Of a stretch of DNA of 64,000 nucleotides, positions 27,026-33,869 are shown piece by piece. The translations under genes and the position numbers were made by a program. The DNA comes from an uncultured Bacteroidota bacterium. Its GTDB lineage: Bacteria; Bacteroidota; Bacteroidia; B-17B0; Aurantibacillaceae. Below the pieces are notes generated by a model that ran no database searches, was not told the DNA's origin, and worked only from the letters and a program-made list of their open reading frames with translations. Numbering within the stretch: position 1 is the first letter of the stretch; the number at the start of each line of letters is the position of its first letter. The stretch is taken from the NCBI GenBank assembly GCA_937873155.1, contig CALMVZ010000036.1, positions 62,001 to 126,000 on the forward strand, written 5' to 3'.

Positions 27026-29218
27026 CTATAATCTTATTCCTATCACACAAACATCATCCACCTGCTCATATCCTTCACTCCAGGTATCGAATGCATTTTC
27101 AAGATTTTGCTTTTGATACTCGGGCGATTGCTTTGAATTCTTAAATAATAATTCTTTCATAGCTTTGTTTTTCATTTTTTTACCTTCTTTCCCTCCAAAC
27201 TGATCCGCAAACCCATCCGAGATCAGAAATAAGGAATCGCCTGCTTTTAATTGGACGTGATGGTCAGTAAAAGGTTTACGGTTATCAAATTTTCCGACAG
27301 GTTGTTTATTTGCTTTTATCTCACTCCATTCTCCGTCTTTAATATACCATAACGGATTGTTAGCCCCTGCCCAATGAAGATCGAATTTTTTGTTCGCCTC
27401 AATTACTTCAGCCAGACTTTGTCCTTTAGGAATAACCAGTTTTCCTTTTGGTAATTTGTTATCCGGGTGATCATTTAGTTCTTCAATCCTTACAAGGCTA
27501 ATATCCATACCATCCTTAACTTCACTTGAACTTTTTCCAAATGTTTCTTCTACCAATTCATTTACTTTATCAAGGATCTTTGCCGGCTCAGTTAACCCGA
27601 ATTCTTTTACTGCTGCGTTCAGCGCATTCGCACAAACAACACTTACCATTGCACCGGGAACGCCATGCCCTGTACAATCAGCCACGGCTATCAATATGCT
27701 TTCTTTTCTTTTCTCCGAACTACCAACTACTTCCCGATAGTTATCGGGATCCGAACTGATATGCATCCAATAAAAATCGCCCGCTACAATATCTTTTGGT
27801 TTGTACAGAACAAACGACTTCGGTAAGTGCTTTTGTATTTGTTCAACAGGCGGTAAGATAGCTTCCTGTAATCTTTTTGCATAAGTGATCGAATCCACGA
27901 TCTCCTTATTTTTTTCCGCAATAAGATCTTTTTGACGTTGAATTTGCGCGTTCTTGTCCTGCAATAACAAGTTATCCTTTTTCTTTCTCACAAAGTTCCT
28001 GTAAAATGCTACGGCCGCAATAAGGGCGAGTACCAAAGCACCAAGCGAAACCCAAAGTAACTTTTTCCTGTTCTCCGAACTCTCTCTCTGGATTTTATTC
28101 TCCGCATTCAATAATTCGATCTCTTTTCCCTGCTTCTCAGTTTTATAAACAGTTTCTAACTCCGCAACGTTCCTCATATTCGTAACATTGGTCAAACTGT
28201 CATCTAATTTATGGTATTCTGCCTGGGTCTTATAAGCATTTTCAAAATCCTTTCTGGCGAAATAAAATTTACTCAGGTCGAAATAAATGTTTTTGCTCCT
28301 GTAGCTGTTTCCCGAATTCTGCGCTCTCACAAGTGCCTCCTTATAATAAAAAAGGGCTGAATCCGCTTTGTTCGTCTTTTCGTAAACCTTTGCCATATTC
28401 TGCAAAATGGAAGTCACGCGCTCCGGGCTTTCACTTAAGGTTTTCATCGCTTTGTACAAATAACTCTTAGCTAATAATGGTTTCCCGATCTCAACATACA
28501 ATGATGCAAGATTGTTATATGAATTCTCGATGCCCACACTGTTCCTGGTTTCGTAAGCGATCGCCAAAGATTTTAACATGAACTCTTCCGCTAAAGTATC
28601 TCGGTACATCGAAAAATAACAGGCGCCCAGGTTATCGTATAATTCGCCCAACAATTTCCTGTCTTTCCTTTTCTCAGTTATCTCTATCGCTTTTAAAGTA
28701 TTCTCCTCGCATTTATCATATTTTCCCATGTAAAAATAAACAGCGCCCAGGTTCTGGTAACTCGCGGAAACTTGCCGTTCATTCTTTAATTCCTGTCTCA
28801 TCGCCAGTGATTTTAAATGCATCTCAACACATTTATCATAATTACCCATACGTTCATAACAGATCCCTCTATTGGTATATATTGATGACAGGACCAGCTT
28901 ATTGTCATTCTTCGTAATATCTGTCTTGTGTATGTATTCTTCCGCCTTATCCAGGAAACCCATTGCCTCCTTATATCTTGCACGGTCAACATACACATTA
29001 CAGGTAATAACGAAAGCCTCCGCGATCATCATATTATCATTAATGCTTAAAGCCAGCGCCATGGCTGAATCGCAATACAATTTTGCCATTGGGAAATTAT
29101 CATGCTTAAGCTTTGTGGCTTTAATGGTAAGACTGTCGAATTTCTGCTTTTGAGCCTTGAAACACAACGGAAGTACCATAAGAAGGAGAAAAACAATATT
29201 TTTAGCTCGTAAACGCAT
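27026..29218 (-). CDS. TPR-containing SpoIIE/PP2C-type phosphatase
   Basis: A 730-residue membrane sensor phosphatase: signal sequence, TPR repeats from about 30 to 340, a transmembrane helix (LLWVSLGALVLALIAAVAFY, about 385-405), a coiled-coil linker with SITYAKRLQEAILPP, then a SpoIIE/PP2C domain. Metal-site motifs are VAGDFYWMH, AVADCTGHGVPGAM and, near the end, DDVCVIGIRL. In known systems it would dephosphorylate an STAS partner of RsbW- or SiaB-type kinases. The domain carries an extra loop of about 20 residues (SSDPDNYREVVGSSEKRK, about 483-503) encoded by a palindromic repeat. Confidence 0.9.
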   Translation of the reverse strand: MRLRAKNIVFLLLMVLPLCFKAQKQKFDSLTIKATKLKHDNFPMAKLYCDSAMALALSINDNMMIAEAFVITCNVYVDRARYKEAMGFLDKAEEYIHKTDITKNDNKLVLSSIYTNRGICYERMGNYDKCVEMHLKSLAMRQELKNERQVSASYQNLGAVYFYMGKYDKCEENTLKAIEITEKRKDRKLLGELYDNLGACYFSMYRDTLAEEFMLKSLAIAYETRNSVGIENSYNNLASLYVEIGKPLLAKSYLYKAMKTLSESPERVTSILQNMAKVYEKTNKADSALFYYKEALVRAQNSGNSYRSKNIYFDLSKFYFARKDFENAYKTQAEYHKLDDSLTNVTNMRNVAELETVYKTEKQGKEIELLNAENKIQRESSENRKKLLWVSLGALVLALIAAVAFYRNFVRKKKDNLLLQDKNAQIQRQKDLIAEKNKEIVDSITYAKRLQEAILPPVEQIQKHLPKSFVLYKPKDIVAGDFYWMHISSDPDNYREVVGSSEKRKESILIAVADCTGHGVPGAMVSVVCANALNAAVKEFGLTEPAKILDKVNELVEETFGKSSSEVKDGMDISLVRIEELNDHPDNKLPKGKLVIPKGQSLAEVIEANKKFDLHWAGANNPLWYIKDGEWSEIKANKQPVGKFDNRKPFTDHHVQLKAGDSLFLISDGFADQFGGKEGKKMKNKAMKELLFKNSKQSPEYQKQNLENAFDTWSEGYEQVDDVCVIGIRL
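27732..27749. repeat. CCCGATA/TATCGGG palindrome inside the phosphatase gene
   Basis: TCCCGATA-GT-TATCGGGA, a perfect eight-base stem, is read in frame as DPDNYRE within the SpoIIE domain. It matches a palindrome I recall as dispersed in Bacteroidota genomes. Its position in an extra loop between two conserved motifs suggests insertion into the gene. Confidence 0.65.
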
Positions 29219-29233
29219 TAAAAATCAGATGTA

Positions 29234-29241
29234 TAAAGATA
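29234..29241 (-). promoter_or_regulatory. Putative -7 box for the SpoIIE phosphatase gene
   Basis: TATCTTTA on the minus strand, seven of eight to TAnnTTTG, 16 bases before the ATG at 29218. Confidence 0.3.
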
Positions 29242-29297
29242 TTATAATTTCTTTTGCGGCAGAATGGTTTTTTTGCGTTTTTATCCTTGATTTTTAG

Positions 29298-29305
29298 TAA
29301 ATTCG
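29298..29305 (+). promoter_or_regulatory. Putative -7 box for ileS
   Basis: TAAATTCG differs from TAnnTTTG at one position and lies 21 bases before the ileS ATG. Confidence 0.25.
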
Positions 29306-29325
29306 CTCTCCTTTTTTAGGGCTTT

Positions 29326-32300
29326 ATGAGTAAATATCCCGAATACAAACAACTGAACCTTCCGCAAATAAGTGCGGATATGCTCCGCTTTTGGGAAGAA
29401 CAAAAAACGTTCGAGAAGTCTGTTACTTCACGCGAAGGTAAAACGCCATGGGTTTTTTATGAAGGTCCGCCAAGTGCAAATGGTTTGCCGGGTATCCATC
29501 ACGTGATGGCACGTGCGATCAAAGATATTTTTTGTCGCTTTAAAACTTTACAGGGTTACCAGGTAAAACGCAAGGCCGGTTGGGATACGCATGGTTTACC
29601 AATTGAATTAGCTGTTGAAAAAGGATTAGGTATTACAAAAGAAGATATCGGAAATAAAAATTCGCCGAAGTATTTATCAGTTGAAGATTATAACAAAGCC
29701 TGCCGCAAGGAGGTTATGAAATATACCGATAAGTGGGAAGAAGTAACTAAGAAAATGGGTTACTGGGTGGATATGACAGATCCCTACATCACTTACGATA
29801 ACAAATACATTGAAAGCGTTTGGTGGCTGCTGAATAATTTATACAAGAAAGAACTATTGTATAAAGGATTTACTATTCAACCTTATTCTCCTGCAGCAGG
29901 AACAGGATTATCATCACACGAATTAAATCAGCCTGGATGTTATAGGGATGTGAAGGATAGAACTGCGACTGTTCAATTCAAAATTCAAAATTCAAAATTC
30001 AAAATTAATAGCGACCTGTATATTTTAGCATGGACAACTACTCCGTGGACTTTGCCTTCGAATACTGCATTGGCTGTCGGAAAAGATATTGATTATGTTT
30101 TAGTAGAATCTTTTAATCCTTTCAGTGGTAAACTTCAAACTACCATTCTTGCAAAAGAATTATTGAATAAATATTTTTCAGAAAAAAATGCGGAATTAAA
30201 ATTTGAAGATTATAAAGCAGGAGATAAAAATATTCCATTTAAAATTGTTGGTCAGGCTAAAGGTTCTGAATTAGCAGGAATTACATACGAACAACTTTTA
30301 CCTTTTGTAAAACCTGAAGGTGATGCATTCAAAGTCGTCGTCGGTGATTTTGTTACAACAACTGATGGTACAGGTATCGTTCACATTGCTCCTAGTTTTG
30401 GCGCGGATGACTTTCAGGTTGCCAGGAAAAATAATATTTCTTCATTAACATTAGTTGACAAGCGCGGTAAATTTTTACCGCAAGTTCAGGATGGTGTTTT
30501 TCTTTACGGGGAAGAATTCGTAAAAGAAGCCTACTTATCTGACGAAGAAAAGAAAACTGAATTCGAGAAACAGAAAAAAATATTAGAAGCGGCCGGAAAA
30601 ATAAAAGAACTGAAAGCTTACCTGAGTGTTGATGAACGCATCGTTCTGAAATTACAGGAAGAAGGAAAATTATTCAAGAAAGAAACTTACGAGCACAGTT
30701 ATCCGCATTGCTGGAGAACTGATAAACCGGTCCTGTATTATCCATTAGATTCCTGGTTCATTAAATCAACTGCTGCAAAAGACAGAATGATCGAATTGAA
30801 CAAAACCATTAACTGGAAACCGGAATCAACAGGAACAGGCCGTTTTGGAAATTGGTTAGAGAATTTAAATGACTGGAATTTATCGCGCTCCCGTTTCTGG
30901 GGCATTCCAATTCCTATCTGGACCAGCGAAGACCGTTCAGAACAAATTTGTATTGGTTCAGTTGAAGATCTTCAAAAAGAAATTGCAAATGCTGTTGCGA
31001 AAGGTGCAATGAAAGAGAATCCTTTGAAAGATTTTAAATCAGGAAATAATTCAGAAGAGAATTACAATACATTCGATCTTCATAAACCTTATGCAGACAA
31101 TATCGTTTTAGAAAAGAACGGAAAGAAATTATTCCGCGAGCCGGATCTTATCGATGTGTGGTTTGATTCAGGAGCAATGCCTTATGCACAACTGCATTAT
31201 CCATTCGAGAACAGATCTCTCATAGATAACGGGCTTTCCCTCTCCCAGGGGAGAGGCAGCGCTGCCAAAGGCAGTGAGGGTGAGGGTGCTGCCGTAGCTG
31301 CTTTCCCCGCTGATTTTATTGCGGAAGGTGTTGATCAAACCCGTGGCTGGTTCTTTACATTACATGCTATAGCAACAATGAATTTTGATTCGGTTGCTTA
31401 CAAGAATGTTGTTAGTAATGGATTAGTGTTAGATAAGAACGGAAATAAGATGAGTAAGCGCTTAGGCAATGCTGTTGATCCGTTCATTACCATTGATAAA
31501 TACGGTGCCGATGCAACACGTTGGTATATGATCGCCAATGCAGCTCCTTGGGATAATTTAAAATTTGATGTGGATGGTATCAGCGAAGTGCAACGTCAAT
31601 TATTCGGAACACTTTATAATACATACGGTTTTTACGCGCTATATGCTAACGTTGATAATTTTTTAATTGACGAAAAAGATATTGTTCCTGTAAAAGACAG
31701 GCAGGAATTAGACCGCTGGATCTTATCAAAATTGCACAGTTTAATAAAAGATGTAACAGAACTTTATGAAACATTTGAACCACATCGTGCAGCCCGTTTA
31801 ATTGAAGAGTTCGTCGATGAACATCTGAGTAATTGGTACGTACGTTTAAGCCGCCGCCGTTTCTGGAAAGGTGAAATGAGCACTGATAAAAAAGCTGCTT
31901 ACGAAACGTTGCACGAATGTTTATTGGTTGTAGCACAGTTGATGAGTCCTATCGCTCCGTTCTTCGGGGATTGGATGTATCAGAATTTAACTTCTCCTAT
32001 CCGCGAAAAAGCAATTGCAAATAAAACGCCATTGCAATACGAATCTGTTCACTTAACACAATTAGTAAAGGCTGAAACAAACATCATTGATGTGAATTTA
32101 GAGCAGCGTATGGCGTTGGCTCAGAAAATATCTTCTATGATCTTATCGATCCGTAAAAAAGAGAATTTACGTGTTCGTCAGCCATTACAAAAAATTCAAA
32201 TTCCGGTTTTAGATAAAGAAACACAAGCAAAAATTGAAGCCGTGAAAGATCTGATCCTTGCTGAAGTGAACGTGAAAGAGATTGAATTCGTTGATGAGAG

Positions 32301-32847
32301 TAAAACACAGATCGTGAAAAATCTGAAACTTAATTTTAAAACATTAGGTAAAAAGTGTGGCGCGAATATGAAAGCTGTTCAGGCTTACGGAGGAGAGAAC
32401 GGAACTAAAATAATTCATGATATTGAGAGTACAGGCAAGCATATTTTAAATGTGAATGGCGCTGAAGTTATTTTGGAAACAGAAGATGTGGAGATCATTC
32501 CTGTCGATATTCCCGGATGGAAAGTCGCGAATAGCGGCCCGATAACAGTTGCCCTGGATGTGACGATCTCTGACGTGCTAAAACAAGAAGGGCTAGCCCG
32601 TGAGATAGTTAACCGCATTCAAAACCTCCGTAAGGACAAGGGTTTAGACGTAACCGACAGGATTTTAGTCAAAATACAGGAAAATGCTGTACTGAATACA
32701 GCTATAAATAATAATTTAAATTATATTTGTTCTGAGACTCTTACAGGGGATCTGCAATTAGTTCAAAACCTGAACAATGCTACCGCAACCGCTGTTGAAG
32801 TTGATGAAACGATATCCACATTGATATCAATTGAAAAGTTAAACTGA
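29326..32847 (+). CDS. ileS: Isoleucine-tRNA ligase with two repeat-derived insertions
   Basis: A 1173-residue class Ia synthetase that charges tRNA-Ile and edits valine. The HIGH-type motif is GLPGIHH at about residues 53-59, the editing-domain segment is AWTTTPWTLPSNTAL, and the KMSKS-type motif is NKMSKRLGN at about 706-714. It is of the long eukaryote-like type common in Bacteroidota. Two segments look foreign: about residues 217-228 (QFKIQNSKFKIN) from a TTCAAAA tandem repeat, and about 632-659 from a palindromic GC-rich repeat placed just before the conserved FPADFIAEGVDQTRGW. The frame stays open, so the enzyme is probably functional. dksA-like starts five bases later. Confidence 0.96.
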   Translation: MSKYPEYKQLNLPQISADMLRFWEEQKTFEKSVTSREGKTPWVFYEGPPSANGLPGIHHVMARAIKDIFCRFKTLQGYQVKRKAGWDTHGLPIELAVEKGLGITKEDIGNKNSPKYLSVEDYNKACRKEVMKYTDKWEEVTKKMGYWVDMTDPYITYDNKYIESVWWLLNNLYKKELLYKGFTIQPYSPAAGTGLSSHELNQPGCYRDVKDRTATVQFKIQNSKFKINSDLYILAWTTTPWTLPSNTALAVGKDIDYVLVESFNPFSGKLQTTILAKELLNKYFSEKNAELKFEDYKAGDKNIPFKIVGQAKGSELAGITYEQLLPFVKPEGDAFKVVVGDFVTTTDGTGIVHIAPSFGADDFQVARKNNISSLTLVDKRGKFLPQVQDGVFLYGEEFVKEAYLSDEEKKTEFEKQKKILEAAGKIKELKAYLSVDERIVLKLQEEGKLFKKETYEHSYPHCWRTDKPVLYYPLDSWFIKSTAAKDRMIELNKTINWKPESTGTGRFGNWLENLNDWNLSRSRFWGIPIPIWTSEDRSEQICIGSVEDLQKEIANAVAKGAMKENPLKDFKSGNNSEENYNTFDLHKPYADNIVLEKNGKKLFREPDLIDVWFDSGAMPYAQLHYPFENRSLIDNGLSLSQGRGSAAKGSEGEGAAVAAFPADFIAEGVDQTRGWFFTLHAIATMNFDSVAYKNVVSNGLVLDKNGNKMSKRLGNAVDPFITIDKYGADATRWYMIANAAPWDNLKFDVDGISEVQRQLFGTLYNTYGFYALYANVDNFLIDEKDIVPVKDRQELDRWILSKLHSLIKDVTELYETFEPHRAARLIEEFVDEHLSNWYVRLSRRRFWKGEMSTDKKAAYETLHECLLVVAQLMSPIAPFFGDWMYQNLTSPIREKAIANKTPLQYESVHLTQLVKAETNIIDVNLEQRMALAQKISSMILSIRKKENLRVRQPLQKIQIPVLDKETQAKIEAVKDLILAEVNVKEIEFVDESKTQIVKNLKLNFKTLGKKCGANMKAVQAYGGENGTKIIHDIESTGKHILNVNGAEVILETEDVEIIPVDIPGWKVANSGPITVALDVTISDVLKQEGLAREIVNRIQNLRKDKGLDVTDRILVKIQENAVLNTAINNNLNYICSETLTGDLQLVQNLNNATATAVEVDETISTLISIEKLN
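29974..30006 (+). repeat. TTCAAAA tandem repeat inside ileS
   Basis: About four and a half copies of the seven-base unit ATTCAAA in a row, read in frame as FKIQNSKFKI. Similar but degenerate ATTCAAAATTCAAA strings occur in the atpA-atpG spacer near 16790-16830. In other IleS proteins this point of the editing domain is shorter, as far as I recall. Confidence 0.65.
31239..31274. repeat. Palindromic repeat cluster inside ileS
   Basis: Three nested palindromes: CCTCTCCC-AG-GGGAGAGG (31239-31256), GCAGCGCTGC (31256-31265) and CTGCC-AAA-GGCAG (31262-31274), followed by GTGAGGGTGAGGGTG. The structure and GC content differ sharply from the flanking ileS. The inserted block runs about 31219-31302 and is a multiple of three. 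Confidence 0.75.
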
Positions 32848-32852
32848 GAACG

Positions 32853-33869
32853 ATGGCAAAGAAAGCACCTAAAAAAGCGAAAGCTTCGAAACCTGCTAAA
32901 AAAGCAAGTAAACCGGCGGTAAAAAAAGCTGTTAAGCCTGCTAAGAAAGCAGCTGTAAAAAAACCTGCTAAAAAAGCAAAACCTGTAGCAAAAAAAGCAG
33001 CTAAGCCTGCTAAAAAAGTTGCGAAACCTATAGCGAAAAAAGCTGCGAAACCGGCTAAAAATGTAGCTGTCAAAAAAACCGTTAAAGATCTGATGGTTAA
33101 AAAAGGCAAGCCGATGGATGCTGTGAAAAAATCAGGAAAGCCTGTTGACGCAAAAGCAAAAAAAGGAAAGAAAAAAGGCGGAGACGATGATGAAGATGAT
33201 GTTGATGTGAAAGATGATTATGAGAAAACAGATGAAGATGATGTTCTGGATGGTGATCTTGAAGAGCCTGCAGTTCTCGATGATGGTGAGATCCCTCCTC
33301 CGTCGGATGACGATGATGATGATGAAGTTCCTATTAAAAAAGGACGTGGCCGCCGCAAAAAATCGGATGGCACATCAAAAGGCGGAAGTATGGAAGCGTA
33401 TATCCGTAACCGTCCGTTACAGATCGATCTTTCAAAACCATTGATCAAACGTAATATGGAAGCTGAGCCAAAACCTTTTGTGAACACAAAAGATAACCGC
33501 TCACGTTATACGGATAAAGAATTAGCCGAGTTCAAAGAATTGATCCTTGAAAAATTAAAAGAAGCGCAAGCCGATTACGATCTTTTAAAACAAACTTTAT
33601 CGAACGAAGATAACCACGGTACCGATGACACTTCTCCGACTTTTAAATTACTGGAAGACGGAAGCGATGTATTATCGAAAGAAGAAACTGCACAATTAGC
33701 AGCCCGCCAGGAAAAATACATCATCAATTTAAAAAATGCATTGGTGCGTATCGAGAATAAAACTTACGGGATCTGCCGTGTCAGCGGTAAATTAATTCCT
33801 AAAGAACGTTTACGCTCCGTACCTCATGCCACTTTAGGCATTGACGCTAAATTAAACCAAAACAGATAA
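32853..33869 (+). CDS. DksA/TraR-like protein with histone H1-like tail
   Basis: A 338-residue protein in three parts. Residues 1 to about 110 are Lys/Ala/Pro repeats (KPAKKA type) like histone H1 or AlgP tails. About 110-165 are strongly acidic (DDDEDD, PPPSDDDDDDE). A short basic patch KKGRGRRKK resembles an AT-hook core. From about 185 comes the DksA/TraR-like domain with coiled-coil (ELAEFKELILEKLKEAQADY) and the terminal segment TYGICRVSGKLIPKERLRSV. Only one cysteine of the usual C4 zinc site is kept, a degeneracy I recall from Bacteroidota homologues. It may bind RNA polymerase and DNA together. It follows ileS by five bases. Confidence 0.82.
   Translation: MAKKAPKKAKASKPAKKASKPAVKKAVKPAKKAAVKKPAKKAKPVAKKAAKPAKKVAKPIAKKAAKPAKNVAVKKTVKDLMVKKGKPMDAVKKSGKPVDAKAKKGKKKGGDDDEDDVDVKDDYEKTDEDDVLDGDLEEPAVLDDGEIPPPSDDDDDDEVPIKKGRGRRKKSDGTSKGGSMEAYIRNRPLQIDLSKPLIKRNMEAEPKPFVNTKDNRSRYTDKELAEFKELILEKLKEAQADYDLLKQTLSNEDNHGTDDTSPTFKLLEDGSDVLSKEETAQLAARQEKYIINLKNALVRIENKTYGICRVSGKLIPKERLRSVPHATLGIDAKLNQNR

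Follow-up and report, generated by a model that had tools for sequence, protein, structure and literature searches.

Inteins with homing endonucleases and Vsr-like homing endonucleases place an endonuclease domain in frame within a conserved gene, at a recurrent site. The Rickettsia palindromic elements (RPEs) are, in the sections of the published account used here, palindromic sequences of about 150 bp that are inserted in frame in unrelated coding genes, leave the frame open, encode a conserved peptide, fall into ten families, and are patchily distributed across species; no mobilising enzyme is named in those sections (PMC10969869). In-frame palindromes are also described, in an excerpt of the corresponding report, from hypothetical proteins of Coxiella (PMC5896051). 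The intragenic REPs of the GTAG and CGTC types are presented, in the part of their account considered here, as short tagged palindromes that are mostly intergenic and sometimes located in repair genes (uvrA, recB) and tRNA synthetases (PMC3733652). The CGTC REPs are said, in the abstract of a report on them, to be without a dedicated transposase, and how in-frame palindromes move is not settled in these portions of the RPE and CGTC REP accounts. Short in-frame palindromes are already known from Rickettsia, from Coxiella, and as intragenic REPs, and the short insert described below is a variant of them. What makes it of interest is that this short coding palindrome is tied by its site, its ends, and its genome to a form with a conserved endonuclease-family domain, which provides a candidate mobilising enzyme to test.

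The window, i.e., the whole 64-kb stretch of DNA that was analysed, is part of a 39-contig genome of 4.85 Mb (below, the own genome). Its ileS gene, the single IleS match in this genome, has an uninterrupted reading frame over its whole length, and the nearest named records to the encoded protein are from Bacteroidetes. The features of the gene are listed in Table 1. Alignment with relatives showed that the window IleS reads N-[24 residues]-FPADF where empty sites read N-KKY-(F/Y)PADF, a net gain of 21 aa. A sequence-only reading of the same DNA had reported a peptide, three palindromes (31239-31274), and GTGAGGG repeats at this place in ileS, and all were present on re-reading; it had let the interval start at 31219, which is too early, since LIDN belongs to the normal loop and the insert begins only at 31231. 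Another IleS loop, at 29975-30007 of the window (about residues 217-227), is built of the direct repeat TTCAAAATTCAAAATTC, and the matching loop of one relative (L032) holds SPFEGGAQRAVD, which is palindrome-like. Adjoining ileS, the stretch 32853-33869 encodes a protein with a long lysine-alanine-rich tail, followed by a domain that we take to be of the DksA/TraR kind.

Table 1. Positions of the ileS gene, its insert and the parts of the insert in the window, and of a related copy in UvrA
Feature	Position	Strand	Basis or remark
ileS, isoleucyl-tRNA synthetase, 1173 aa, host of the insert	29326..32847	+	ORF; Pfam tRNA-synt_1, Anticodon_1, DUF5915
Native loop LIDN, outside the insert	31219..31230	+	found in empty relatives too
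In-frame insert, residues 636-659 (24) replacing KKY; net +63 nt	31231..31302	+	comparison with relatives
Hairpin 1 = family hairpin, CCTCTCCC-AG-GGGAGAGG	31239..31256	+	perfect hairpin; pattern search; own-genome copies
Second palindrome GGCAGCGCTGCC, overlaps hairpins 1 and 2	31255..31266	+	read directly from the sequence
Hairpin 2, CTGCC-AAA-GGCAG	31262..31274	+	read from the sequence
End tag GTGAGGGTGAGGG	31274..31286	+	family end GGTGAGG, doubled in the window insert
Solo right end in frame in UvrA, own genome, NSPLPGRGVGGEA (L351)	G000:C2:157169-157201	-	right-end model

The block differs from its flanks in base composition, as had been claimed: the GC content is 0.65 at 31234-31299 compared with 0.38 in the remaining ileS, and other 66-nt stretches of the gene reach at most 0.58. 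The pattern CCTCTCCNNNNGGAGAGG-N6-36-GTGAGG occurred a single time in the 64 kb (31239-31285), against 0.00 expected from 100 shuffles. On the other hand, the folding energy of the DNA was not unusual for its composition, as 84 of 300 shuffles were equally low, and GTGAGGGTGAGGG with up to three mismatches was found six times in the window, about the chance frequency (4.0). It is the specific palindrome with its tag, and not the strength of folding, that constitutes the evidence for the window insert. No Rfam family matched positions 29000-33000 at the gathering thresholds.

In the structural model of IleS (mean pLDDT 78.5, pTM 0.64, 36 sequences), residues 636-660 form a coil with neither helix nor strand and with pLDDT below 50. 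The insert stays in frame within an essential gene, as would be expected of a working part of IleS that is selected for synthetase function. The chance of this is negligible in view of the low confidence of the predicted coil, the patchy presence of the insert, and its species-specific sequence.

Patchiness became evident when the site was compared among relatives. IleS matches came from 96 genomes out of a set of 100 made up of the own genome and its relatives. Among the best-scoring 30 loci of this 96-genome match set, the window included, 26 were empty and four filled, which agrees with the proposal of an in-frame insertion absent from the IleS of relatives. The filled loci were those of the window, of G007 and G001 from the same genus, and of G017 from another genus of the same family. 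Their inserts differ in sequence, all being palindromic, in frame, and at the same site, and the peptides encoded by IleS inserts differ between species. A wider set of 140 loci, deliberately enriched for inserts, combined the 30 best-scoring loci with 80 named genome contigs and 30 selected genomes, i.e., 25 with low E-values, three with a long span (G017, G220, and G274), G043, and G001, which was known to be filled; 135 of the 140 loci were usable. When loops with at least 43 residues between fixed IleS motifs were counted as filled, 19 of the 135 rows (17 distinct) were filled and 116 empty.

The longest perfect stem was at least 6 in 12 of the 17 filled loops compared with 12 of the 115 distinct empty ones, the filled loops being also longer. 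Single-base shuffles matched the stem in 0.5-5% of cases for L004, L006, L010, L033, L123, L141, L180, L191, and L193; the remaining filled loops had higher rates, up to 94.5% in the long L187. No family hairpin was recognised by eye in L130, L135, L179, L188, and L190, which make up five of the 17 filled loops that are distinct, and in L123 the family hairpin is not the longest stem.

On an IleS tree from which the insert was left out, a minimum of 15 changes is required to account for the filled/empty state, and starred branches force 11 of these. Shuffling the labels gave a mean of 18.1 changes, with 5 to 7 of 500 shuffles as low as the observed 15; the filled state clusters slightly on the tree. 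At finer scale, the filled G007 and the empty G006 share about 96% DNA identity around the site (89-100% per 150-base segment), and their comparison showed a local replacement with no clean cut. No target duplication was seen. The near-site identity at the G007 insert (93-94%) was not clearly below that of the rest of the gene, and we therefore make no claim of a co-conversion tract. These results bear on the idea that IleS received one ancestral insertion, which was inherited and repeatedly lost while drift, or conversion by other copies, altered its sequence in each genome. The slight clustering would suit such a history, and, as several species' filled loops have LIDN-G on the left and A(A)F on the right in common, some inserts may be inherited rather than independent, although the common G and A flanks can stem from the element ends. 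A single insertion is nevertheless unlikely given the at least 11 forced changes, a count in which gain is not distinguishable from loss, the filled and empty sisters of about 96% DNA identity, the different types of hairpin sequence among close relatives, and the presence of a DUF559 domain at the IleS site in three species.

In these three species (G368, G423, and G229), the domain lies between palindromic ends at the same IleS site as in the window, and the frame is open throughout (E-values for DUF559 of 2.4e-33, 1.2e-33, and 5.7e-35, respectively). The ends of the G368 copy are perfectly inverted, GGCCCCCTAAATCCCCCGAAGGGGGACTTT being followed at the other side by its reverse complement. 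DUF559 is presumably a Vsr-like domain of the PD-(D/E)XK type endonuclease fold class, and among solved structures its sequence is closest to that of 3hrl, an endonuclease-like protein (E 8.6e-21). Of the three DUF559 matches in the own genome, two are free-standing and the third lies in frame in LeuS. Scanning four of the DUF559-bearing host proteins, the junctions of which were read by eye, detected no intein or Hint family at E 0.001. A PADLOC search gave no match up to E 1. As to carriage by phages or plasmids, none of three phage records reached 40% identity and none of 40 plasmid records 60%, the ten organism names listed for the plasmids not being Bacteroidota. A Pfam scan found no DUF559 domain in the window IleS, and the window copy can therefore be no more than a derivative of the full element; it has one hairpin-tag orientation only, and an inverted second end is absent. 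The mobile palindrome postulated by the sequence-only reading thus holds as far as it went but was incomplete, as the long form at the IleS site elsewhere and in the LeuS of the own genome had been overlooked. With the long form at these two places, the palindromes look like the ends of an endonuclease-bearing element.

That the genome would contain further copies of the palindrome was borne out by a search with the hairpin pattern (up to two mismatches), which gave 27 forward and 29 reverse matches in the own genome compared with 0 and 1 for a reversed-pattern control; one palindromic site may score on both strands in these counts. In the copies, hairpin 1 is followed by a second hairpin of variable sequence and mostly by GTGAGGT, the window tag being GTGAGGG, and the position of this variable hairpin is taken, in the window insert, by hairpin 2. 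Some copies are inverted pairs (L045). Thirty loci were fetched of the 56 pattern matches, and the ileS copy, matched on both strands, was the only one in a long frame; the other fetched loci had open stretches of at most 229 codons. BLASTN of the block against the own genome, by which the copies had been expected to show, returned no near-identical copies: besides the block there were a partial relative (79% over 48 nt, E 7.8e-4) and a match of 14 nt (E 5.2). BLASTN was too strict to serve as a copy count, and the hairpin pattern together with the reading of copies was used instead.

Thirty-nine right ends taken from full elements served to build a covariance model. On the window insert it matched the hairpin alone and weakly (9.7 and 9.3 bits, E 2.2 and 2.7), because hairpin 2 separates the hairpin from the tag. 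A link between the window insert and the full element is suggested instead by the anatomy, by the shared site, and by the free DUF559 locus L209, which has the same form of hairpin 2. In the own genome, at least 10 copies were found by the model at E <0.05 when 150 of 503 candidates were scored, among them an in-frame copy in UvrA (Table 1) and the two ends of the LeuS element. Of 30 UvrA loci, 29 were readable; palindrome-type peptides were present at this place in the own genome, G003, and G017, and the 26 others were without them. A second model, built from 17 own-genome copies, was dropped, as hairpin 2 was not in register in the alignment. At L209 (G000:C24, ~184169-186132), hairpin arrays, partly in tandem with a period of ~58 bases, surround the free-standing DUF559 gene, which lies on the minus strand.

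The in-frame DUF559 copies form a coherent group. Most have a common leader before the domain (aromatic, x, T-A-D/N-P-like), and in a tree of 106 DUF559 domains, 83 of the 84 in-frame copies were placed behind one branch (99/96) together with three short-ORF copies of similar leader or ends (L331, L332, and L338); L329 is the sole in-frame copy outside it. The labels require four changes on this tree compared with 20.3 in shuffles, none of 500 being as low, for a tree of few columns and many open forks in which two same-genome rows and the recurrent LeuS rows are not independent. Right ends were located by a strict end finder in 59 of the 84 in-frame copies and left ends in 44; the corresponding counts among the 22 short-ORF copies, the only control, were 5 and 3. 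Among 46 right ends, the stem GAGAGG was followed by the tag GAGG in 24 of 24 cases and other stems by GGGG in 16 of 22, with L227, L294, L295, L299, L303, and L313 as the six exceptions (Fisher p 7.5e-8 for rows that are not independent). The active-site motif (R-R-Q-H, x-D-F, E-x-D-G) is retained in full by 75 of the 84 in-frame copies, and its E-x-D-G part by 80. For ten in-frame pairs, dN/dS was 0.04-0.13, the values being rough for the five in which dS exceeded 1; dS was saturated in an eleventh in-frame pair, and dN/dS was 0.165 in a free pair. The DUF559 nuclease domain is under purifying selection.

With the LeuS copy as the query, matches were obtained in 155 of 395 genomes of the class. 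Among the 150 class matches listed, sorted by likeness to this in-frame query and with frame classes counted by hand, 91 lie in open frames of at least 300 aa and 59 in shorter ones. A sample of the phylum gave matches in 56 of 148 genomes, with at least 10 matches in open frames >800 aa outside the class. The hosts, as judged from flanks read by eye, comprise LeuS (two sites), IleS, AcsA, MetH (two sites), methylmalonyl-CoA mutase, RecG (two sites), TsaD, TsaB, RecJ, MutS, SpoIIE-type phosphatases, and a few singles; LeuS and IleS are Pfam-confirmed, the rest were named from sequence reading, and some loci are unnamed.

Site A of LeuS was matched in 92 of 100 genomes, at least 15 of which have a full-size insert as judged by gap length or reading. 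Fifty site-A loci (30 best-scoring and 20 long-looking) comprised 11 full, 14 short, and 24 empty ones and one that was unread, and no stop was present in frame in the 11 full inserts. As an exception elsewhere, the right end of the DUF559 element in the LeuS of G116 (L233) places a TGA in frame, at which LeuS would end; this may be a real disruption or an assembly error. The LeuS of G017 (L271) has both ends and lacks DUF559. Two of the short inserts belong to a different palindrome family; simple repeats or plain sequence make up several more. The former, L272 (G058) and L274 (G048), carry RHPELVSGSQEMLKQVQHD and CACCCTGAACTYGTTTCAGGGTCT in frame, while L263, L265, L269, and the more diverged L268 hold short direct repeats, GGACTCAAGACTAACGACTCAAGACTAACGAC. 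As these and other LeuS loops carry other palindromes or plain repeats, the landing loops accept unrelated repeats too. Direct repeats in LeuS loops, and in the second loop of the window's own ileS (29975-30007), could indicate that the block under study is a local low-complexity slippage expansion in a tolerant loop and not mobile DNA. Such an origin is very improbable, as it is contradicted by the same hairpin and tag at intergenic places and at the ends of the DUF559 element and gives no account of a nuclease-family domain at the IleS site.

The main rival to a DUF559-driven element is that the hairpin-tag repeats are moved in trans by a tyrosine transposase of the IS200/IS605 type (RAYT/TIRYT), the DUF559 genes being passengers flanked by repeats. 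A hairpin with a short tag is the grammar of REPs, and GGGGWSAS, reported in the cited portion of the literature for repeats flanking some TIRYT genes, fits the tag GGGGTGAG (PMC3733652). The own genome has four Y1_Tnp matches; at one of them (L177, G000:C12:212647-212991) there are three adjoining palindromes with the tag GGGGTGAC, and at another (L175) inverted palindromes of its own and a lone GGGGTGAG. However, when the palindrome type CTCTCC..GGAGAG was scored in the fetched flanks, it was found beside three of three DUF559 loci of the own genome and at none of the four Y1_Tnp loci. In addition, the in-frame DUF559 copies are often bounded by matching ends at either side, and they evolve under purifying selection, to which a passenger need not be subject. 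We consider transposition in trans possible but improbable, though less so than the other alternatives. The three palindrome copies beside the Y1 gene of L177 end in GGGGTGACAT, and the two may form a REP-transposase pair.

The analysis established the anatomy, the in-frame position, the repeated use of certain sites, the grouping of in-frame DUF559 domains on a common branch, and the selection on the nuclease domain. Our preferred reading, to which we give a probability of about two in three, takes the window insert for a short mobile palindrome of the non-autonomous kind that lies in a tolerant IleS loop and is a solo-end relative of the endonuclease-bearing DUF559 element. The insert is made up of hairpin 1, a variable hairpin 2, and the tag GGTGAGG and, as the frame is conserved, is probably translated and retained in the IleS protein. 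The long element has the same kind of hairpin and tag at both ends, inverted, and between them a DUF559 endonuclease domain that continues the reading frame of the host gene with no stop codon. In many Bacteroidota, the same few loops of housekeeping proteins appear to be shared by full, two-ended, and one-ended forms, and copies would survive there only when the host frame stays open. The short forms may derive from the long one through loss of the nuclease. The nuclease, in turn, could cut DNA and drive copying into empty sites, with the hairpin and tag as the putative feature recognised. Cutting of empty sites by the endonuclease would explain the recurrent sites, the conserved catalysis, and the patchy distribution.

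A broader proposal, which we put forward tentatively and would not yet wager on, is that there is a class of mobile elements inside essential proteins of Bacteroidota, in which a palindrome-ended DUF559 endonuclease resides as an unspliced in-frame loop (in LeuS, IleS, AcsA, MetH, MutS, and others) and spreads by cutting empty alleles, and that coding palindromes (the one in the window, perhaps those of Rickettsia) are its relics or parasites. The longer form in related species does suggest an origin for protein-embedded palindromes. In many Bacteroidota, the DUF559 domain is fused within translation and other housekeeping enzymes, and these fusions matter to annotation, to structure work, and to LeuS and IleS phylogenies.

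No description of a palindrome-ended in-frame DUF559 element was found in the literature searched, which covers few subscription papers, and none of the DUF559 literature found concerned in-frame elements as judged by titles or the beginnings of abstracts. Compared with RPEs, the window insert is likewise palindromic and in frame in a coding gene, with the host frame left open. In contrast, it adds 63 nt, occurs in Bacteroidota, and has species-variable peptides, the RPEs being compared by their published description in part; it also has a longer relative with an endonuclease-family domain, of which there is no mention in the sections of the RPE account used. Of the Rickettsia-like mobile palindrome that had been proposed, the palindrome family, the in-frame position, and the open gene thus stand, while membership of a Rickettsia family does not. 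From GTAG/CGTC REPs the family differs in its tag, GGTGAGG, which is neither GTAG nor CGTC, and in being tied to DUF559 and not to RAYT genes, the family palindrome being missing from the fetched flanks of all four Y1_Tnp loci of the own genome. With TIRYT repeats it shares the fit of GGGGWSAS, known for some of them in the excerpt cited, to GGGGTGAG (PMC3733652), but the gene beside the ends encodes a DUF559 endonuclease-family protein and the Y1 loci of the own genome are without the family hairpin. Inteins and Vsr-like homing endonucleases are matched by a DUF559 domain in frame inside conserved genes at recurrent sites, whereas the absence of a Hint family from the four fused proteins, the palindromic DNA ends, and the nuclease-less relics with open frames set the element apart. 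Enzyme-less two-ended forms such as the LeuS copy of G017 (L271) resemble MITEs, but the window copy is one-ended and target duplication was not seen. Relative to the palindrome-ended in-frame DUF559 element itself, the window copy lacks the DUF559 domain and the two inverted ends, and it has in common with it the CTCTCC..GGAGAG hairpin followed by the GGTGAGG tag and a landing site that the full element uses.
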